Source: a virus. From it: a stretch of DNA of 21,261 bases. Position numbers and translations under genes: made by a program. Below are positions 1-8,450 of this stretch, in pieces; within the stretch, counting starts at the first letter, position 1; every line of letters starts with the position of its first letter. The stretch lies in IMG/VR virus record IMGVR_UViG_3300047554_001229, positions 1-21,261 of that record; one strand, 5' to 3'. The notes beneath the pieces were generated by a model. It was not told the origin of the DNA, did no database searches, and was given only the letters and a program-made list of their open reading frames with translations.

Positions 1-32
1 ATTGCAATTTCATATACCAATCGTCCCATGCA

Positions 33-878
33 ATGAATCCTCTTGACTCTTTGCTGCGCCATTTCTCGCTTCAAGCGGGTGTGTTCTACACAGGCAACAT
101 CTGTGGCCGTCATGACTTTGAGCAAGATCTGATGCGAGGCCATCTTCATGTCATCAGGCATGGCGTGGTGGAGCTGATTGGGTCTAAGCGCGAGAAGTTT
201 GAAATCACTGAACCCACCTTGGTCTTTTTGCCGCGCCCAGATGATCACAGACTGATGGCCGACAACCAGGCGGGCGCGGAGGTGGTGTGTGGCACCGTTT
301 TTTTCGATGGTGGAGGCGCCAATCCCATCACTGACTCGTTACCTGATTGTGTGCTCATCAAGCTGTCAGAAACTCGGGGGATTGAACAGCTTCTGGATCT
401 GATGGTGGAGGAAGCGTTCAACTCTTGGGATGGTCAACAGGCAACCTTGGATCGGCTCTGCGAGATTCTCATCATCCGATTGCTCAGGCATTGCATCGCC
501 CACGGTGTGGCGTCAAGCGGCACTCTGGCTGGACTGGCAGACATCCGACTCGCCAAAGTGATGCAGGCCATACACGACTACCCTTCTCGTGCTTGGACGC
601 TTGAGAACATGGCTGAGACTGCTGGCATGTCTCGTGCCCGATTTGCCGCACATTTCAAAGCGCAGACAGGGACAACGCCCGCCAATTACCTGGCCTCGTG
701 GCGGCTCATGCTTGCGCAGAAGCTGATGAAAAAGGGGCTGGCACTCAAACTTATCGCCGCAGAAGTGGGCTACGGAAGTTCTAGCGCCCTGGCCAGGGCC
801 TTTGCCAGAGCGTTCGATTGTTCGCCGTTGCAATGGCTTCAGGCTCAAAGCTTGCCCGAAACCCCAGATTTGGGATGA
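33..878 (+). CDS. AraC-family transcriptional regulator with N-terminal cupin domain
   Basis: 281 aa, a usual length for an AraC regulator. Residues 1 to about 180 resemble the Cupin_6/AraC-binding sensor domain: the start MNPLDSLLRHF is followed by a GHLHVIRHGVVELI strand pair. Residues about 190-275 hold the two helix-turn-helix motifs: the first around LENMAETAGMSRARFAAHFK, the second around LIAAEVGYGSSSALARAFARAF, ending in the conserved SPLQW. It should bind DNA as a dimer and respond to a small ligand through the cupin domain; the ligand is unknown. It lies 81 bases upstream of the AhpD-like gene on the same strand, so it probably controls that cluster, though this is inferred from position. 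The ATG at 33 is chosen because the ATG at 28 runs into a stop at once. Only 32 bases lie upstream, so its promoter is not visible. Confidence 0.9.
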   Translation: MNPLDSLLRHFSLQAGVFYTGNICGRHDFEQDLMRGHLHVIRHGVVELIGSKREKFEITEPTLVFLPRPDDHRLMADNQAGAEVVCGTVFFDGGGANPITDSLPDCVLIKLSETRGIEQLLDLMVEEAFNSWDGQQATLDRLCEILIIRLLRHCIAHGVASSGTLAGLADIRLAKVMQAIHDYPSRAWTLENMAETAGMSRARFAAHFKAQTGTTPANYLASWRLMLAQKLMKKGLALKLIAAEVGYGSSSALARAFARAFDCSPLQWLQAQSLPETPDLG

Positions 879-959
879 ATCGTCGGATCTTTGAGACGAA
901 TGGTATCCACGGAATCACAGCCAATACCCAAAATATCATTTCTTTCAATGGAGATGATT

Positions 960-1526
960 ATGTCGAACCGCTACCTCAATTCACTGTCGGCCCTGAACCT
1001 TGAGACCGCCACTGGCGCGCAAAAGGAAATTCTGGAAACCGCCCAAAAGCAAGTGGGCTTCATTCCGAACATGTACGCTAACATGGCTAATGTGCCCGGG
1101 GTGCTGAGCACCTACCTGCATGGATATGGACTGTTCCGCAAAGACTCCGGCTTCACGCCGACCGAGCAGGAAGTCGTGTTTTTGGCCGTCAGCCAAACCA
1201 ACGGCTGCAAATACTGCACCGCAGCGCACAGCATGATTGCCGACAAGATGTCTGGAGTGCCAGCAGATGTCTTGCAGGCGATTCGTACAAGTCAGCCCAT
1301 CGCAGATGCACGTCTGGCTGCACTCTTTACCTTGACCCAAGACATGGTCAAGCACCTTGGCCAACCCTCTGCGGAAAAAGTCAAAGCCTTTCTGGACGCG
1401 GGCTACACCGAGAGCCATGTGCTCAACATCGTTCTGGCCGCGGCCGTGAAGGTGCTCAGCAACTACACGAACCATGCTTTTGCAACAGAAGTCGATGAGC
1501 GATTCGCCGCCTACAAAGTGGTGTAA
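960..1526 (+). CDS. AhpD-like / carboxymuconolactone decarboxylase family protein
   Basis: 188 aa. The AhpD-type active-site signature is clear: Glu70 in TPTEQEVVFLAVSQT, then Cys83-Lys-Tyr-Cys86 and His90 in NGCKYCTAAH. In this family the CxxC pair plus Glu and His form a proton relay used in thiol-dependent peroxidase activity. It belongs to the peroxidase-related subfamily rather than to the decarboxylase proper, which lacks CxxC. A longer reading from 891 is possible, but the ATG at 960 has GGAG placed upstream (in ggagatgatt) and gives the normal N-terminus, so it is preferred. It is followed after 6 bases by a small ORF and then by a haloacid-dehalogenase-type gene. This suggests a detoxification or stress operon under the upstream AraC regulator; the substrate is not known. 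Confidence 0.88.
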   Translation: MSNRYLNSLSALNLETATGAQKEILETAQKQVGFIPNMYANMANVPGVLSTYLHGYGLFRKDSGFTPTEQEVVFLAVSQTNGCKYCTAAHSMIADKMSGVPADVLQAIRTSQPIADARLAALFTLTQDMVKHLGQPSAEKVKAFLDAGYTESHVLNIVLAAAVKVLSNYTNHAFATEVDERFAAYKVV

Positions 1527-1532
1527 ACACAC

Positions 1533-1841
1533 ATGACCCCATCCCAGATCCCACAGCACTTTGAGAGAACCATGGGCTGTAGCCAGGCCGATTTGCTGCG
1601 GTGGCTACCTGACGCCTTAGCTGGTGCATCGATCAAGGTCGATGAAGAGCAGCGATTGTGTCTTGCGCGCTGGGATTGGGGTCATCTGCAACTGGGCTGG
1701 GAAATTCTTCAAGACAGAAAAATCGCTCTCTTGTCTATCCCCTGCATGAAGGTGAGCTTCAGCTACTCTGGAGCCACTGCAGAGCAGAGATTTCAAATCC
1801 AGCGCAAATTCGATTTGCATACTCAAAGAGGGGGTGGGTGA
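1533..1841 (+). CDS. Conserved small protein of unknown function
   Basis: 102 aa, not assigned to a named family. It starts 6 bases after the AhpD-like stop and ends in TGATG, overlapping the next start by one base, so it is embedded in a tight operon. The N-terminal half looks helical (SQADLLRWLPDALAGA). The middle looks like alternating beta strands with several Trp residues (LARWDWGHLQLGWEIL, then RKIALLSIPCMKVSFSY). The C-terminus ends FDLHTQRGGG. The overall pattern of a hydrophobic strand pair and a charged FDL...RGGG tail resembles small uncharacterised betaproteobacterial proteins I recall only vaguely. No signal peptide, membrane segment or catalytic motif is visible. The operon position, rather than sequence bias, is the main evidence that it is real. 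Confidence 0.7.
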   Translation: MTPSQIPQHFERTMGCSQADLLRWLPDALAGASIKVDEEQRLCLARWDWGHLQLGWEILQDRKIALLSIPCMKVSFSYSGATAEQRFQIQRKFDLHTQRGGG

Positions 1842-2560
1842 TGTCCAAAATTCGCGGGCTGGTGTTCGATGCCTATGGCACTTTGTTTGATGTTTACTCG
1901 ATCGGGCGTCTGGCTGAAACGATGTATCCCGGATCGGGGGCAGCTATCACTTCGATATGGCGCGACAAACAGATTGAATATTCCCGACTGATTACATTGT
2001 CAGATCCTGACGTCAGTGGAAGCCGTCACTACCAGCCCTTTTGGGATCTGACCCTGGCGGCTCTTGAATACAGCCTTCAAAAGCTGGGTCTGCAATACGG
2101 TCAGCAGGACATCCAGAGGTTGATGGATCAGTATGCACAGCTGGATGCTTTTCCTGAATGCAAAGGCGTCCTGCAAAAGCTGAGTGAAATGGGATTGCCT
2201 ATGGCCATCCTCTCCAACGGCTCCCCTCAAATGCTTCAATCTGCAGCGCATCACTCTGGCTTGATGCCCTATCTGGCTCACCTGATTTCAGTGGAACAAG
2301 TCAGGCAATTCAAGACACACCCACAAGCCTACGCTCTTGCCTCAAAGACTCTGAGTATTCCCACCGAGGAATTGCTGTTTGTCTCCTCCAACGGCTGGGA
2401 TGTCATGGGCGCAACCTGGTATGGGTTCAAAACCTGTTGGATCAACCGCGCTGGATTGCCTTTTGAGACAATCGGACCGCGCCCTTCGTTTGACGGCTCT
2501 GATTTGAGTATTGTGCTCCGTGTGTTGCAGAGTAACGAAGAACAGCCAAGTTCACATTAA
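1841..2560 (+). CDS. HAD hydrolase, type II (S)-2-haloacid dehalogenase family
   Basis: 239 aa, close to the size of known L-2-haloacid dehalogenases. The nucleophile is Asp10 in FDAYGTLFDVYS, with Thr14. Arg41 follows Trp40 as in characterised enzymes. Motif II is Ser125-Asn126 in ILSNGSP. The motif III lysine is Lys158, followed by Tyr164 (QFKTHPQAY). Motif IV is SSNGWD (Ser182, Ser183, Asn184, Asp187). Every residue of the family's catalytic set therefore appears to be present. Such enzymes hydrolyse the C-halogen bond of short 2-haloacids with inversion, through an aspartyl ester. The ATG at 1841 is chosen because it places Asp10 normally and overlaps the preceding stop as TGATG. A longer reading from 1658 adds 61 residues with no family likeness. 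The natural substrate cannot be read from sequence; some relatives act on other compounds. Confidence 0.88.
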   Translation: MSKIRGLVFDAYGTLFDVYSIGRLAETMYPGSGAAITSIWRDKQIEYSRLITLSDPDVSGSRHYQPFWDLTLAALEYSLQKLGLQYGQQDIQRLMDQYAQLDAFPECKGVLQKLSEMGLPMAILSNGSPQMLQSAAHHSGLMPYLAHLISVEQVRQFKTHPQAYALASKTLSIPTEELLFVSSNGWDVMGATWYGFKTCWINRAGLPFETIGPRPSFDGSDLSIVLRVLQSNEEQPSSH

Positions 2561-2593
2561 GCGCTTTACGCGTCTAGGACCTACGTCCGCTCT

Positions 2594-2613
2594 TGGCCGG
2601 TTGCTGCCGGCCA
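2594..2613 (+). repeat. Short GC-rich inverted repeat after the dehalogenase gene
   Basis: TGGCCGG, a six-base loop and CCGGCCA form a perfect 7-bp stem 33 bases after the HAD stop, between the convergent HAD and fic genes. It could end transcription from the plus strand, but no T-run follows, so a standard intrinsic terminator is not supported. The flanking wording (acgtccgctcttggccgg) resembles short dispersed intergenic repeats seen in many proteobacteria; that comparison is from memory. Confidence 0.4.
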
Positions 2614-2730
2614 TCAAGAAATTTCGCTGACGTCAACACACAAGCAACATCCAACAATACGACTGACATATTCATCCACTACAAACACCCCTCATATGAA
2701 ACCGTCGTGGAACGACAGGAGTTGGCTAGA

Positions 2731-3891
2731 TTAGCGCGGCTTATTCAATGTGTCAGGAATGAACCCTTCATTGGACAAAGAACGGATAACACCTCGTATC
2801 AAAAAGTTATTGGCGAAACCGACCGTGTATTGCCTCGATCCCGAGCGGATTGGCGCCAACATGCCACGCTCAACGAGTTTGCTGATCATGTAGGTGCGTT
2901 GCCGTTCCGAAAGCTCAGGCATGGCCACTTTCAGATCGCTGGCTTTGACTACACCGAGACGTGCAGTCGTCAACAGCACCGACTCTTCGACTGCTGTGAC
3001 CAGCTCACGTTCCCGGGCATAGTGCAATGCAGGGGTCAGGATCCTGTCAATGAGGTAGCCTGCATCTGTCAAGCGATCAACCTTGCGCAACTCCTCTAGC
3101 ATTCCGCTGAGCACATAGACACACCATTGTTCGAGGCCGTTGACTGAGCCCCTGTCGGCCACACCGAGCATGGCGTAATAGCGGTCTCGGTCATTACAAA
3201 AAACTGCTGTCGGGTTCAGTACTCGGCCTCCAGCCTTCACGTTGAATCCGTACTTGATGAGCAAGGTGTAGGTCAGCAACCGGACCACACGCCCATTTCC
3301 GTTACGGAACGGGTGTATCCATGCAAACCTATGGTGCGCCAAAGCAACCTTGATGAGGTCATATTTCGCGGGATCCGCTCGATTGATGAACTCCACCAGT
3401 TCCGCCATGTACTGAGGAACAACCAACGCCTCTGGCGGCAAATGCTCTGACTTGGAAATCTGCACAGGCTTTTGGCGATATGCCCCCGGTGTGGCATCCC
3501 CCTCTCGCTCCAAGCCCGTGACCGTCATGGCGTGCAGCTCTCGCACCCAGTGCTCCGTCACATCCTGCCCAGGCTGAAAATGCTCCTCAATGAAGCTCAT
3601 CGCCTCCTCGATGTTGGCCATCTCCCTCAACTGATCGCTCAATGGAGCAGGCTGCGCTTCCAGACGGCTTTCCACGTAATCTGCCAAGGTTGTGTGATTG
3701 CCTTCGATACGCGCCGACCCCAAGCTCTCCAGCATGTGAAAAATATGTTTCAGCTGAAAGAAGACTGGCGCAGGCGTGCTGCCTCCAAGGCGCAGACGCC
3801 GCAGATGTTCCAACTCGGTCACCACGTCCACCAGTGGCGAATCGAATGCTGGGTTCAGCAATGAAAGATCATGATGCTTGAAAGTTGGCAT
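2731..3891 (-). CDS. Fic family protein (AMPylator-type), class II with N-terminal inhibitory motif
   Basis: 386 aa. The Fic core motif is intact: His193 to Arg201, HPFRNGNGR, in the context [18 protein letters not shown]. Fic enzymes usually transfer AMP from ATP to a Ser, Thr or Tyr hydroxyl of a target protein, and the histidine is the base. Residues 59-64, Ser-Ala-Arg-Ile-Glu-Gly, match the (S/T)xxxE(G/N) inhibitory helix motif. Its position N-terminal to the Fic core makes this a class II, self-inhibited protein that needs no separate antitoxin. Residues about 300-360 look like a winged helix ([29 protein letters not shown]), common at the C-terminus of this group. The ATG at 3891 is preferred to the in-frame GTG at 3924, which adds an odd hydrophobic stretch. 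It is convergent with the HAD gene and divergent from the SRAP gene. The target protein is unknown. Confidence 0.92.
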
Positions 3892-3916
3892 ACTCACACA
3901 CAAAAGTATGGTCAGA

Positions 3917-3925
3917 ATTATCACA
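3917..3925 (-). promoter_or_regulatory. Possible extended -10 element of the fic promoter
   Basis: On the minus strand TG-T-GATAAT fits an extended -10 (TGn plus a five-of-six TATAAT match). It lies 25 bases before the fic ATG, in an AT-rich gap. No convincing -35 was found, so this is a weak call. Confidence 0.3.
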
Positions 3926-4017
3926 CAACATCTACAAAATTCGTCGTGATTTTCTGCATTGAAGTGATATTTATCCTTTTAAATCAATACTTTGCAGTTT
4001 TTTTGTGGGTCGTTTTT

Positions 4018-4047
4018 TTGCAAACGCTTTGGGTAACTATATACAAT
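4018..4047 (+). promoter_or_regulatory. Putative sigma-70 promoter of the SRAP gene
   Basis: TTGCAA at 4018-4023 and TACAAT at 4042-4047 are separated by 18 bases and lie about 78 bases before the SRAP start. An overlapping TATACA at 4040 gives 16-base spacing. The gap 3892-4124 is clearly more AT-rich than its surroundings and holds no gene. No CTG-N10-CAG LexA box was found here, so the SRAP gene may not be under direct LexA control. Confidence 0.45.
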
Positions 4048-4124
4048 CCACACCCATCAAGAACAACAAACCAGTGCCCTCATGAACTTGCATGTTGGCA
4101 CCCGCGAGTATTCGTCTGCCTGTC

Positions 4125-4790
4125 ATGTGCGCCCATTACGAATCCGTCCACGATAAGGCCCGTCTGAAACAGCACTTCGGAGTCGAATTCCCAAGCGAGC
4201 TGGCCCGCCGCGATGTCTGGCCGGGTTACCTGAGCACCTTCATCCGCCGCCACCCACATGCCGACGGGGGTGACGACACGGTGCCCGAACGTGAAGCGCT
4301 GGTAGGAAGCTTTGGCCTGATCCCGCACTGGGCGACAGACACCAAGATTGCCCGCCATACCTACAACGCCCGCACCGAAACCGTCGCCGAAAAACCCAGC
4401 TTCAGGGACGCCTGGCGCAAGGCGCAGCACTGCATCATCCCGGTGGAAACCTTCTTCGAACCCGACTGGCGCAGCGGCAAAGCCATCCCCACCCGCATTG
4501 GCAACTCCAACGGCGATCCCCTGGGCGTGGCCGGCCTGTGGTCCACCTGGCGAGATCCCAAGGGCCAGACTTTGCACAGCTTCACCATGCTGACCATCAA
4601 CGCGGACCATCACCCGTTGATGAACCAGTTCCACAAGCCCACCGACGAGAAACGGATGATCGTGATCCTGCCGCCTGAGCGCTACCGAGACTGGTTGGAG
4701 GCCAGTGCGAAGGACAGCGGAGATTACTTGCGGGCATGGCCAGCCGAGCTGATGGTGGCAGAAGCCCCCCAACACGGCTTTGCCTTGTAA
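4125..4790 (+). CDS. SRAP-domain protein (SOS response-associated, YedK/HMCES family)
   Basis: 221 aa. SRAP proteins form a covalent thiazolidine link with abasic sites in single-stranded DNA through Cys2, after the initiator Met is removed. The start at 4125 gives Met-Cys-Ala-His-Tyr, placing Cys2 exactly where it must be; the upstream ATG at 4092 would bury it, so it is rejected. The other family residues are in order: Asn81 in TYNARTET, Glu112 in ETFFEP, and His170 in MNQFHKP, matching the Asn, Glu and His of YedK. Differences from the usual MCGRY and GFYEW motifs suggest a divergent subfamily. The gene stands 112 bases before umuD on the same strand, so its job in tolerating DNA damage fits its neighbours. 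No strong ribosome-binding site is visible. Confidence 0.9.
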   Translation: MCAHYESVHDKARLKQHFGVEFPSELARRDVWPGYLSTFIRRHPHADGGDDTVPEREALVGSFGLIPHWATDTKIARHTYNARTETVAEKPSFRDAWRKAQHCIIPVETFFEPDWRSGKAIPTRIGNSNGDPLGVAGLWSTWRDPKGQTLHSFTMLTINADHHPLMNQFHKPTDEKRMIVILPPERYRDWLEASAKDSGDYLRAWPAELMVAEAPQHGFAL

Positions 4791-4874
4791 AAAAACCGCC
4801 CCGTCACCTTGCGGCAGCGTAGCGTAATCGGAGCGCATCAGGGCAACTGCAATCGTCCTGATGGCTGTATGATA

Positions 4875-4890
4875 CTGTACATAACAACAG
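4875..4890 (+). promoter_or_regulatory. LexA (SOS) box upstream of umuD
   Basis: The 16-base element CTG-TACATAACAA-CAG fits the CTG-N10-CAG LexA consensus exactly and ends 12 bases before the umuD ATG. A -10-like TATGAT (4868-4873) lies immediately upstream, so LexA bound here could block transcription start or early elongation. This follows the known SOS control of umuDC operons. Confidence 0.8.
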
Positions 4891-4902
4891 TATTTGGCGG
4901 CC

Positions 4903-5328
4903 ATGCAAGCCTTCTCCCCACTGCTCGTGCCCACGCCACAGGCCTGGGTGCGGTTCATCGCCGGCAAGGTGCCCGCCGGGTTTCCCTCCCCGGCCGAAGA
5001 GCATCTGGTCGAACGCATCGACCTGATGGCCAAGCTGGTGGTCCACCCGCAGGCCACCTTCTTCGTGCGCATCAAGGGCGACAGCATGCAGGGCGCCGGC
5101 ATCTTCGACGGTACGGTCGTCATGGTGGACAAAGCCATCAAGCCCCGGCATGGCCACATCGTCATCGCCGTAGTCGATGGGGATTTCACTTGCAAAAGGC
5201 TGCACCAGCGCGGCGGCACCATGCGCCTGAAACCAGAGAACCCCGATTTCCAGGACATCGTGCCCAAAGAAGGCCAAACCGTTGAAATCTGGGGCGTGGT
5301 CGCGGCCACCATCAACCAGCATCTCTGA
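4903..5328 (+). CDS. umuD: UmuD-like translesion polymerase V subunit, self-cleaving
   Basis: 141 aa, about the length of E. coli UmuD. The cleavage site is Ala25-Gly26 in [12 protein letters not shown]. The serine-lysine dyad is Ser61 (GDSMQ) and Lys98 (FTCKRL), one residue off the E. coli positions. RecA-ssDNA filaments should stimulate autocleavage to UmuD', which then partners UmuC in polymerase V. The ATG at 4903 is preferred over an in-frame TTG at 4894 because it gives the normal N-terminal length. The LexA box just upstream indicates SOS induction. umuC begins 16 bases after the stop, giving one operon. Confidence 0.95.
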
Positions 5329-5344
5329 CCCTGCTCGTCAGAAC

Positions 5345-6664
5345 ATGATTGCGCTTCTCGACGGCAACAACTTCTATGCAAGCTGCGAGCGCGTCTTTCA
5401 GCCGCACCTGGTTGGCCGCCCGGTCGTGGTGCTGTCCAACAATGACGGCTGCGCCATCGCGCGCAGCGACGAAGCCAAAGCGCTGGGCATCAAGATGGGC
5501 GCGCCCTACTTTCAGATCCGCCACCTGGAACACCAAGCCGGCCTGGTGGCGCTGTCTGCGAACTTCACCCTGTACGGCGACATGAGCGACCGCATGATGA
5601 GCCTGGCCGCAGGCCTGGGCCATCGGCAGGAGATCTACAGCATCGACGAATGCTTCATCGACATGGCCGGCATCCGCGGGGACCTGAGTCTGCGTGCGCG
5701 CAAGATCCGCGCTCGCATCCACCAATGGACTGGCCTGCCGACTTGCATCGGCATCGCTCCGACCAAGACCCTGGCCAAGCTGGCCAACCACGTCGCCAAA
5801 AGCGCGGAACGCAAACCCGGCAGCTACCCGACCCAACTCGCCCAGGTCTGCCAGTGGCCAGATTTGTGCGACAGCGCACACGCTGTGTGCGAAATCACAC
5901 ACAAAGCCCTGCTGCAGGCCACAGAGGTGGGCGAAGTCTGGGGCGTCGGCCGCAAGCTGTCCGCCCAGCTGAGCGAAGTCGGCATCCGCACCGCCCTCGA
6001 CCTGGCCCAGGCCGATCCGGTGGCCGTGCAGCGCCGCTGGTCCATCGTGCTGGCCAAAACCGTGCGCGAACTCAACGGCACCGCCTGCCTCACGCTCGAC
6101 GACATCCCGCCCGACAAACAACAGATCGCCTGCACCCGATCCTTCGGCCGCCCGGTCACCGAACTCAATGACCTGCTCGAAGCCATCACCGAATTCGCCA
6201 GCCGCGCCGCCGAAAAGCTGCGCAAGCAAAACGGCCAGGCTGGCCAGCTCATGGCCTTCATCCGCACCAGCCCCTTCCGCAAGCAGGACAAGCAACACAG
6301 CGCCTACCGCACCATCCCCCTGCTCGCCCCCACCAGCGACAGCGCCCACCTGACCGAACTGGCGTGCGCCATCGTCCGCCACATCTACCGCCCCGGGCAC
6401 AACTACGCCAAAGCCGGCGTGATGCTCATGGACCTGCAACCGGCCAGCACCGAACAACTGAGCCTGAACCTAGGCAACGAAGAACCCGAAAACCGCACCC
6501 GCCTGATGCAAGCCCTGGACAGCATCAACCAACGCTTCGGCCGCGGCACCCTGCACCTGGCCAGCGCAGGCACAGCGGGCAAGCACAGGACGTGGGAGAT
6601 GAAGCAAGAGCGCAAGACACCGGGCTACACAACGGATTGGGAAGGGTTGCTGGTGACAACGTAA
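5345..6664 (+). CDS. umuC: UmuC-like Y-family DNA polymerase V catalytic subunit
   Basis: 439 aa. Y-family polymerase metal ligands are present: Asp6 in [13 protein letters not shown] and Asp101-Glu102 in YSIDECFID. The finger motif [11 protein letters not shown] is at 31-41. A helix-hairpin-helix region lies at about 192-225 ([16 protein letters not shown]). The little-finger domain follows, and the C-terminal DUF4113-type tail has W417 ([17 protein letters not shown]). QLSLNL at 371-376 is a possible degenerate beta-clamp binding motif. With UmuD' it should bypass DNA lesions at the replication fork, with low fidelity. The ATG at 5345 is chosen because it places the DGNNF motif at the usual distance; the longer ORF start at 5282 lies inside umuD. 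The gene looks intact and functional. Confidence 0.95.
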
Positions 6665-6680
6665 TGGCAGGCGTCAACCA

Positions 6681-6701
6681 TGTTTCAACACTGTTGAAAC
6701 A
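6681..6701. repeat. Perfect 10-1-10 inverted repeat between convergent umuC and crp-like genes
   Basis: TGTTTCAACA, one C, then TGTTGAAACA: both arms are exact reverse complements over 10 bases. It begins 17 bases after the umuC stop and 26 bases before the end of the crp-like gene. It is AT-rich with no T-tract on either side, so it looks more like a protein-binding operator than a terminator. The binding protein is unknown. Confidence 0.75.
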
Positions 6702-6726
6702 ACATCGCGTGAATCCTAACCATGAA

Positions 6727-7419
6727 TCATGCTGTGGCCAGCATGGGCCTGTGTCGACCTTGACCGATCCAATAGCAGTCGCACGACAGGTTTTCCAAAC
6801 CTTCGCGATCCAATACGGTGATGTGGCCGCGGCTGACCTCTACAAAACCCGCATCCAGCAGACGACCGATCGCAAGCGTCACGCCCTCGCGGCGAAACGC
6901 CAGCAGATCGGAAATCTCACGGTGTGTGATTTGGATGTGTGGCGTCAAGGTCCTGTCGAGAGTGACCAGCAGCCAGCGAATCAGCTGCTGGTCCACGGAA
7001 TGTTTCTTGCCGCAGTAGATGCTTTGCGTCTTGCGCTTGAGCATGAGCTGCACCCCCTGATTGACGTGTTGGACATACACGGGGCAACGGGGAATCACAC
7101 GCCGCATGTCAGCAACCGAGATCCGGTAGGCCAATCCTGAATTCCTGACGGTGGCGCGGTAAAAACTCGGCTGGCCTGACGTCCCCACCCCCACAAAGCA
7201 GGCGTTGCCCATCATGTAGGTCTCCACACAGCCACCGTCGGGCTGATCCACGATCATCGAGACCAGTGCGCCGACAGGAAAGTAAAGCTGGGTAACCGTG
7301 TCACCGGCGTGGAAAAGAGTCTGACCCTTTTGCAACGAAACAAGGTGCATGCGTTCAGTAATGATGCGGTATTCGTCCTCAGGCAGCGACGCAAGCAAGT
7401 CATTGATTTGGGGGCTCAT
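6727..7419 (-). CDS. Crp/Fnr-family transcriptional regulator
   Basis: 230 aa. The N-terminal half is a cyclic-nucleotide-binding-like beta barrel (about residues 15-125, with GQTLFHAGDTVTQLYFPVGALVSM). A dimer helix follows, and the C-terminal HTH_crp winged helix sits at about 165-210 (ITHREISDLLAFRREGVTLAIGRLLDAGFVEV). It ends with the EGLENLSCDCY pattern common in this subgroup. The usual cAMP-contacting RSA-type motif of Crp is not obvious, and there is no N-terminal FNR-type cysteine cluster, so the signal sensed is unknown. The gene is divergent from the small winged-helix gene at 7564, and a perfect inverted repeat lies midway in the shared upstream region. Confidence 0.9.
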   Translation of the reverse strand: MSPQINDLLASLPEDEYRIITERMHLVSLQKGQTLFHAGDTVTQLYFPVGALVSMIVDQPDGGCVETYMMGNACFVGVGTSGQPSFYRATVRNSGLAYRISVADMRRVIPRCPVYVQHVNQGVQLMLKRKTQSIYCGKKHSVDQQLIRWLLVTLDRTLTPHIQITHREISDLLAFRREGVTLAIGRLLDAGFVEVSRGHITVLDREGLENLSCDCYWIGQGRHRPMLATA

Positions 7420-7484
7420 GCTTTCACAGATTTACGGGAAAACCCGCGATGTTTGATGAAACCCTCAAAAATAGCAACATATTG

Positions 7485-7505
7485 AACATGTACTTTGTAC
7501 ATGTT
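7485..7505. promoter_or_regulatory. Perfect 9-3-9 inverted repeat, probable operator between divergent regulators
   Basis: AACATGTAC, TTT, GTACATGTT is an exact inverted repeat. It lies about 65 bases from the crp-like start and 58 bases from the start of the 125-aa winged-helix gene. Its length and symmetry suit a dimeric regulator, and its position suits control of both promoters. Which of the two neighbours binds it, if either, cannot be told from sequence. Confidence 0.7.
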
Positions 7506-7563
7506 GTTTAGATAGGCAATTTGATCAATTCCACATAGTCTTTCGCTCACAAAAAGAAGAGCG

Positions 7564-7941
7564 ATGACAACAAGATCCAACAACAATGAGCAACTCCTAC
7601 CGGCCACAGAAAACGCCCTGAAGGTCCGGTTTTGGGAGAAAGCCAATCTCCCTATCGAGCAAAGCGCGCTGGCACTGGATCTGTTCCTGGTGATCGCCTA
7701 CAACACCCTGCGCGGTCAACCCCTGACCCTCAAGTTGCTGTTTCACAGCATTGATTTCAGCGAAGCGGGCATCCGCAAGCATCTGCGGCGCATGCTCACC
7801 GAGGGCTGGTGTGTGCTCGAAGGCAGCGAGCGCGACAAGCGCCTTCGGCACGTGGTGGCCCAGCCCAAGATGCTGGACGCCCTGTCCGACTACATCGACG
7901 TGCTCAAGGACGCCTTCGGCACCCCTACCCTGGCCGACTGA
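7564..7941 (+). CDS. Small winged-helix-like protein, possible MarR-type regulator
   Basis: 125 aa. Residues about 25-100 look like a MarR-like winged helix: a long helix (SALALDLFLVIAYNTLR), a helix-turn-helix-like segment (TLKLLFHSIDFSEAGIRKHLRRMLTEGWC), then a wing (VLEGSERDKRLRHVVAQPK) and a C-terminal helix (LDALSDYIDVLKDAF). The SERDKR wing matches the usual D-x-R wing of MarR proteins in style. A good ribosome-binding site (AGAAGAG) precedes the ATG. The protein is shorter than a typical MarR regulator, and no ligand site can be named. It is divergent from a Crp/Fnr-like gene and is the last plus-strand gene before the prophage; its end is 35 bases from the convergent end of Rz. It may be host or prophage-carried. 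Confidence 0.75.
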   Translation: MTTRSNNNEQLLPATENALKVRFWEKANLPIEQSALALDLFLVIAYNTLRGQPLTLKLLFHSIDFSEAGIRKHLRRMLTEGWCVLEGSERDKRLRHVVAQPKMLDALSDYIDVLKDAFGTPTLAD

Positions 7942-7976: not shown

Positions 7977-8450
7977 CTACTTCGGCCAGGCCTGCTGCAG
8001 CATCAGCGCGTCGGCAGCGTGTCCATCAGCCTGGCCTGCCACTTCTCGATAAGCTGCCTGGCACTCGTCGAGTACGGCTGAGACGGTGCTGGCGTACTGA
8101 GTGCAGGCGCCGGGGGCATCAGCAAGGGCGCGCTCGCGTTGGGCGCCAAGGGTGGAACTGAACACCCGGCCAGCAGCATCGGCAGAGCGCTGAGCGCTTT
8201 GCGCCAGAGCTCGGCTTTGTTGGGCTTGGGATTGCGCATGGCTTAACTCCTTCATCCAGTTCATCTCTCGCGTGTGCATTGCCTGCACTTGTTGGTGGGC
8301 CCGCTGCTCGCACAGTGCACGCTCGCGCTCGGCGCGAATGCTCTGCTGGTGCACGTTGTAGCGGTACCCCAGCCAGATCCCCAGCAAGGCGGCCGCCAAT
8401 GGCAAGCCCACATGGCGCAACCAATTCCCGGCCCAGAACCAATCAATCAT
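7977..8450 (-). CDS. Rz-like i-spanin (inner-membrane lysis protein)
   Basis: 157 aa. It has an N-terminal signal-anchor segment at about residues 11-29 (LRHVGLPLAAALLGIWLGY), then a long charged, glutamine- and alanine-rich helical region (about 33-110) likely to form a periplasmic coiled coil. Two cysteines (116 and 130) lie in the C-terminal part. This is the architecture of Rz-type spanins, which join the outer-membrane Rz1 to fuse the two membranes in the last step of lysis. The ATG at 8450 is chosen over the longer reading from 8492, because it overlaps the endolysin stop by 8 bases and gives the normal short N-terminus before the membrane helix. Rz1 is nested inside it in another frame. 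Confidence 0.85.
   Translation of the reverse strand: MIDWFWAGNWLRHVGLPLAAALLGIWLGYRYNVHQQSIRAERERALCEQRAHQQVQAMHTREMNWMKELSHAQSQAQQSRALAQSAQRSADAAGRVFSSTLGAQRERALADAPGACTQYASTVSAVLDECQAAYREVAGQADGHAADALMLQQAWPK
8003..8239 (-). CDS. Rz1-like o-spanin lipoprotein, nested in Rz
   Basis: 78 aa, encoded entirely inside the Rz gene in a different frame on the same strand. It has a lipoprotein signal: charged N-terminus, hydrophobic stretch and lipobox Leu-Leu-Ala-Gly-Cys26 (LPMLLAGCSVPP). The mature 53 residues are rich in proline (11 by count), as expected for an Rz1 outer-membrane subunit that contacts Rz across the periplasm. A strong Shine-Dalgarno sequence, AAGGAG, lies about 8 bases before the ATG at 8239, supporting real translation. 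The combination of lipobox, proline content and nested position is diagnostic for Rz1 and argues against a chance ORF. Confidence 0.88.
   Translation of the reverse strand: MRNPKPNKAELWRKALSALPMLLAGCSVPPLAPNASAPLLMPPAPALSTPAPSQPYSTSARQLIEKWQARLMDTLPTR

Follow-up and report, generated by a model that had tools for sequence, protein, structure and literature searches.

A candidate operator upstream of a small MarR-like winged-helix gene beside a prophage

Genes and palindrome of the locus

The DNA analysed here (the window) is a stretch of 21,261 nucleotides, IMG/VR record IMGVR_UViG_3300047554_001229. The left third of this viral-classed record appears to be host chromosome adjoining a prophage. 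The genes at positions 1-7941 (assigned partly by eye) are AraC-like, HAD-like, Fic, SRAP, UmuDC, Crp and winged-helix (wHTH) genes, and prophage lysis genes begin near 7977. A location next to a prophage had been proposed by the sequence-only reading of this DNA. This is the case in the window but not beyond it, as no relative of the wHTH gene is found in viral contigs (three queries). Searches of phage and plasmid records give no wHTH relative either.

Two other elements are located in this region. A LexA-type box (CTGTACATAACAACAG, positions 4875-4890; 0.34 chance matches expected in the window) lies just upstream of the umuD-like frame (4894) of a SRAP-UmuD-UmuC set. A 10-1-10 palindrome (TGTTTCAACACTGTTGAAACA, 6681-6701) is positioned between the converging ends of the umuC and Crp/Fnr-type genes, and viral contigs have no exact copy of it.

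The features of the divergent region are as follows.

6727-7419, minus strand: Crp/Fnr-type regulator of 230 aa (by Pfam domains), the divergent neighbor of the wHTH gene in the window only
7420-7563, no strand: divergent intergenic region, 144 nt, 62.5% A+T, between the starts of the Crp/Fnr-type and wHTH genes
7485-7505, no strand: palindrome (exact match), the putative operator of the wHTH protein, with counterparts upstream of the wHTH gene in relatives
7492-7505, plus strand: the part common to this site and those of the close relatives (14-mer match), consisting of the core ACTTTGT and the wHTH-proximal half-site ATGTT
7564-7941, plus strand: MarR-like winged-helix protein of 125 aa, a putative autoregulator, with SEAGIRK in the recognition helix (by AlphaFold2 model, MepR match and family profile)

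The divergent neighbor was correctly described as Crp/Fnr-like from the letters of the sequence. Both defining domains of that family, the cNMP-binding domain (cNMP_binding, PF00027, 8.2e-07) and the Crp-type HTH (HTH_Crp_2, PF13545, 3.4e-10), are above the Pfam cut-off.

The palindrome, AACATGTAC-TTT-GTACATGTT (in full, AACATGTACTTTGTACATGTT), is a perfect 9-3-9 inverted repeat with an odd centre. It is located 65 nt from the start of the Crp/Fnr-like gene and 58 nt from that of the wHTH gene, and is indeed almost centred between them, as had been noted. A perfect repeat with arms of at least 9 and a gap of at most 10 is present in 48 (about 1%) of 5000 dinucleotide-shuffled versions of the 144-nt gap, and the whole window has four such repeats as compared to 0-4 in 20 shuffles. 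As a result of this chance level in the gap and a window-wide count within the shuffle range, the palindrome by itself is mildly unusual, and as evidence for an operator on its own it is only suggestive. The 14-mer class has two matches in the window, one per strand, both of them at this palindrome only.

A consensus scan of 7420-7563 finds no sigma-70-like promoter. A reading of the palindrome as a terminator was dropped, as no terminator was found and the flanking genes diverge. A search of viral contigs with the palindrome as a 19-mer with a free centre gives three stretches (L020-L022), two of which are near copies, in phage regions without Crp/Fnr or wHTH genes. Near-identical phage terminase-like genes (by eye) are present in L021 (785-2410) and L022 (1-2251), with the L022 copy interrupted in frame by an intein-like sequence and the L021 copy uninterrupted. 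Nothing related was found in the literature on the 9-mer of the site as an operator.

The winged-helix protein and its relatives

The wHTH protein has no match above the cut-off in Pfam or NCBIfam (the best, PaaX at 0.019, is below the cut-off), and none in PHROGs at 0.01. Its AlphaFold2 model (pLDDT 86) contains helices at residues 4-28, 35-49, 56-62, 67-79 and 101-118, and strands at 83-87 and 95-99. This corresponds to a winged helix with N- and C-terminal flanking helices, a feature of MarR-type proteins. The top structural match of the model is DNA-bound MepR (4lll), with a Z score of 13.1 and an rmsd of 2.4 over 109 residues, and the best rows of the structure comparison are MarR-family chains. 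The gene had been described simply as a short winged-helix gene; it has no confident family match, yet the structure predicted for its product is of the MarR winged-helix type.

The predicted fold is like that of MepR, including its DNA-bound form, among the autoregulated MarR-family repressors (MepR, MarR and SlyA type). There are differences, however. The protein is short (125 aa, with the last predicted helix at 101-118), its sequence is 8-9% identical to that of MepR, and no library match is above the cut-off. A profile of the wHTH family matches MarR chains in the Protein Data Bank with an E value of 2.7e-4, and for L029, a distant relative, the Pfam MarR match is at 0.002, short of the cut-off. 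The profile also matches chains of SarA, a single winged-helix regulator of the SarA/Rot type, but weakly (E values of 0.004-0.05) and with low similarity. Moreover, SarA sites are A/T-rich, unlike the AC-WWW-GT site described below. Judged by its predicted structure, the wHTH protein is MarR-like, in a family unnamed by the protein-family libraries scanned (Pfam and NCBIfam).

A scan with one genome per species gives four wHTH loci, from two Limnohabitans and two metagenome bins (Burkholderiales and Comamonadaceae). In the genus of one such relative, 13 of 90 genomes have a wHTH match, five of them with a close relative and the others with distant ones only. Five close relatives (L002, L003, L004, L005 and L025) are 68-70% identical to the window protein, with values of 70-74% given by the genus search. 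The gene is rare in draws from the family and order, being found in 4 of 299 genomes (three of these are weak matches) and in 3 of 399 at an E value of 1e-15. A search of a second genus, with a wHTH match in 22 of 84 genomes and the best 10 of 35 matches fetched as loci, adds L070 (50% identity) and L071 (37%). The last search, of 399 genomes, finds the same two genomes and one distant wHTH match. The wHTH start codons are predicted ones, and the wHTH counts leave out L028 (start unclear) as well as L016 and L017 (weak matches, outside the family by eye).

Several of the relatives have neighbors of their own. In L002, L003, L004 and L025, a convergent second small winged-helix-like gene and a membrane-protein-like gene are located downstream of the wHTH gene. 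In L031 (about 907-2759), the wHTH relative, a histidine kinase and a response regulator adjoin the C-terminal part of an umuC-like gene (by eye), and umuC is near the wHTH gene in the window as well. The distant relatives L015, L029, L030, L032, L033 and L035 adjoin TolC-, HlyD-, two-partner secretion- and histidine-kinase-like genes (by eye), and the L032 locus has an additional HTH-receiver regulator (Pfam). Such neighbors hint at the control of surface-protein secretion, and the wHTH family may matter there in Burkholderiales.

Counterparts of the site in relatives

The 14-mer ACWWWGTNNATGTT is present once per locus in L002, L003, L004 and L005 (12 kb) and in L025 (3.4 kb), always preceding the wHTH gene. 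Its distance to the wHTH start is 58 nt in L002, L003, L004 and L025, and 55 nt in L005. The site sequences are ACTTTGTACATGTT in the window, ACTTTGTATATGTT in L005 and ACAAAGTGAATGTT in the other four loci. In shuffled 200-nt upstream regions the 14-mer is found anywhere in 4-8 of 20,000 per region, a figure to be read with its definition after the inspection of L002-L005 and with the similarity of L002, L003, L004 and L025 across most of the upstream region, which makes them one lineage.

The five whole genomes contain 30 matches to the 14-mer, five of which are those upstream of the wHTH gene. Another 21 are within frames of at least 103 aa (either strand), three are over an ABC-transporter-like start codon (L040, L046 and L054), and the last is in a doubtful 94-aa frame (L051). 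The reversed 14-mer, as a control, has 3 matches as compared to 30, and the excess is mostly within coding frames. As the clear intergenic matches of the five genomes are all upstream of the wHTH gene, the 14-mer looks like a dedicated local site at this gene.

The orientation of the core varies, with ACTTTGT in some members and ACAAAGT in others. Compared with the window without gaps, L003 and L005 are identical at 3-12 of the 20 positions in each bin, with no peak at the site, since L003 has the core in the opposite orientation and L005 is shifted by 3 nt. The site was misaligned by MAFFT in the upstream regions, and was revealed by alignment on the distance from the start codon. With L003, L004 and L025 the highest 21-mer score is 13 of 21, a level that shuffles often reach (748, 549 and 726 of 2000, respectively), and the evidence for these three loci is the 14-mer and its position, not the 21-mer score. 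Scores as good are found in 159 of 2000 shuffles for L002 and 6 for L005. L003 has another 21-mer, at 124 nt, whose score equals that of the 58-nt one. A 29-base pattern was over-specified (0 of 5 genomes), and the 14-mer was used instead.

L070 and L071 were fetched after the 14-mer had been defined, and the strict 14-mer is absent from both. Each has an AC-WWW-GT semi-palindrome before the wHTH start, AGCCTTTACTTAGTACATATT at 51 nt in L070 and TAACTTTACTAAGTAAAGCTT at 46 nt in L071, and the L070 site is the best palindrome match across its 3-kb locus (16 of 21). All nine symmetric pairs of the site are present in the window, as compared to 2-4 in the five close relatives, five in L070 and seven in L071. 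Of these copies, the one in the window is alone in having full dyad symmetry, and the idea of a symmetric operator conserved across relatives is limited accordingly.

The core together with at least five of the nine symmetric pairs, at 40-65 nt, is found in 3 of 19 further relatives (L070, L071 and L067), with L067 counted only from its upstream GTG start, which is uncertain. The shuffle expectation is 0.11, giving a P value of about 2e-4, or about 0.005 without L067, both of them too favourable as the rule (core, 40-65 nt, five pairs) was set after these three sites had been seen. With L068 and L079 added, the site is present in 3 of 21 distant relatives. It is absent in most of them, 16 of 19, or 18 of 21 when these two are included. 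Two of the site-less relatives, L035 and L032, have palindromes with 12-bp arms and gaps of 4 and 5, at 117 and 104 nt before the wHTH gene, which may be operators of different specificity.

Among 27 family members, the AC-WWW-GT core is located at 40-65 nt in all eight with the SEAGxRK recognition helix as compared to one of the 19 others, a grouping made after the sites were known and in which the eight represent about four or five lineages, with four of the proteins belonging to a single lineage. The site is 46-58 nt upstream of the gene in all eight. This distance is less variable than that between the site and the divergent gene, which is 65, 71, 75, 88 or 115 nt.

The divergent gene in the five close relatives is not Crp but an excisionase/MerR-type HTH (Pfam HTH_17 in L003 and L005, the two of the five on which Pfam was run). 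L070 has a lipoprotein-like divergent gene 71 nt from its site, and L071 a nitroreductase-like one at 75 nt (both named by eye). For the three groups formed by the window and its close relatives, the site is 65, 115 and 88 nt from the divergent gene, with the L002 and L025 starts placed at an internal ATG in line with those of the other relatives (longer frames exist).

Close relatives of the Crp/Fnr-type protein (E value of 1e-50 or better) are found in 2 of 399 family genomes, 2 of 84 and 3 of 90, these genomes being partly shared, and no Crp relatives are found in viral contigs. Six close Crp loci (L018, L019, L069, L080, L081 and L082; 3.7 kb, about 1.5 kb per side) lack both the 14-mer and a wHTH gene. 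Upstream of the Crp gene in L018, the closest 21-mer matches at 14 of 21 positions and is without the AC-WWW-GT core. Three of five genomes with a close Crp relative hold a distant wHTH member (25-32% identity), on another contig in G091 and G455 and more than 1 Mb away in G871. The Crp-type proteins of four genomes that carry a close wHTH relative reach at most 35% identity, save one partial match of 39%, and are on other contigs or tens of kilobases from the wHTH gene.

A conserved Crp/Fnr-wHTH pair is not supported by this comparison. The Crp gene is divergent in none of the seven SEAGxRK relatives with the site, and a wHTH gene is present in none of the six close Crp loci, in a sample in which no genome of the window's own species or one near it was found. 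The pairing looks incidental. As for the suggestion that one symmetric operator serves both regulators, the palindrome behaves like a regulatory site and follows the wHTH gene, but the two-gene pair is not conserved.

Proteins that may bind the site

The palindrome probably serves as the operator for the wHTH protein (7564-7941), a small MarR-like regulator that would be autoregulatory. The site is read in this way because it accompanies the wHTH gene in relatives, and the Crp/Fnr-type gene does not. MarR regulators form dimers through their terminal helices and bind pseudo-palindromes, often at their own promoter. In a wHTH dimer, the recognition helix of each subunit (SEAGIRK) would be placed in one AC...ATGTT half-site around the AC-WWW-GT core. 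The bound dimer, directly upstream of its own gene, would adjust its own transcription, and the simplest form of this would be autorepression, as is usual in the MarR family. Sequence comparison gives the site, its position ahead of the wHTH gene in seven relatives, its link to the SEAGxRK helix and its occurrence next to various divergent genes; protein binding at the site, the dimer state and the sign of regulation are inferred. The reversible core (ACTTTGT or ACAAAGT) is in keeping with a symmetric protein. Binding could quite conceivably also affect the divergent gene, here the Crp/Fnr-type regulator, as the site is just 65 nt from it. As an example of autorepression among MarR-type regulators, CrtR is reported to repress the promoter of the crt operon as well as its own promoter (PMC7432914).

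The conserved stretch could instead be a promoter or activator element of the wHTH gene for a general host factor, with the perfect dyad of the window being secondary. In the close relatives, conservation is chiefly of the core and the proximal half, whose distance from the start is constant, and the sites in most relatives are asymmetric, both of which are consistent with such an element. We consider it unlikely, as a reversible core suits a symmetric protein and not a directional promoter, the only clear intergenic 14-mers in the five genomes are those before the wHTH gene, the presence of the core tracks the recognition helix, and the consensus scan is without a sigma-70-like promoter. That the palindrome is a functionless chance repeat is scarcely credible. 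Its frequency of about 1% in the gap and a window-wide repeat count not above that of shuffles would allow for chance, but its position is conserved in relatives from several lineages.

Crp/Fnr-family regulators frequently bind to palindromes in the vicinity of the genes that encode them, and the start of the Crp/Fnr-type gene is 65 nt from the site. The Crp/Fnr-type protein might then bind here and control both genes as a master regulator. However, the site precedes the wHTH gene in genomes whose divergent gene is not Crp, the 14-mer is missing from the six close Crp loci, and the best candidate in L018 is coreless. Moreover, the consensus sites of Crp and Fnr, TGTGA-N6-TCACA and TTGAT-N4-ATCAA, are of even length, whereas the palindrome has an odd length and different half-sites, so that the sequence-only reading was right in finding it unlike either. 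Binding by the Crp/Fnr-type protein is very unlikely on these grounds. A role for the excisionase/MerR-type partner, which would bind the site in the Limnohabitans relatives and leave a relic in the window, is harder still to accept. Such a gene is divergent from wHTH in five of five close relatives (with Pfam on two). However, sites of the same type stand next to other divergent genes in L070 and L071, and no excisionase/MerR-type gene is seen beside the wHTH gene of the window, although the window site is the most symmetric.

With the wHTH protein as the probable ligand of the palindrome, what is described here is an ordinary autoregulation motif, in which the operator persists while its neighbors change. 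It is tempting, but rather doubtful, to go further and suppose that the small, patchily distributed MarR-like regulator moves together with its operator as a portable control cassette, and so faces a different divergent neighbor from one bacterium to the next. If this is true, any gene across the operator would fall under wHTH control, and in the window the operator would have become fully symmetric and captured a Crp/Fnr regulator. At the level of the family, these observations propose an operator for MarR-like proteins that are unnamed in the libraries scanned, and would link the SEAGxRK helix to the AC-WWW-GT site.
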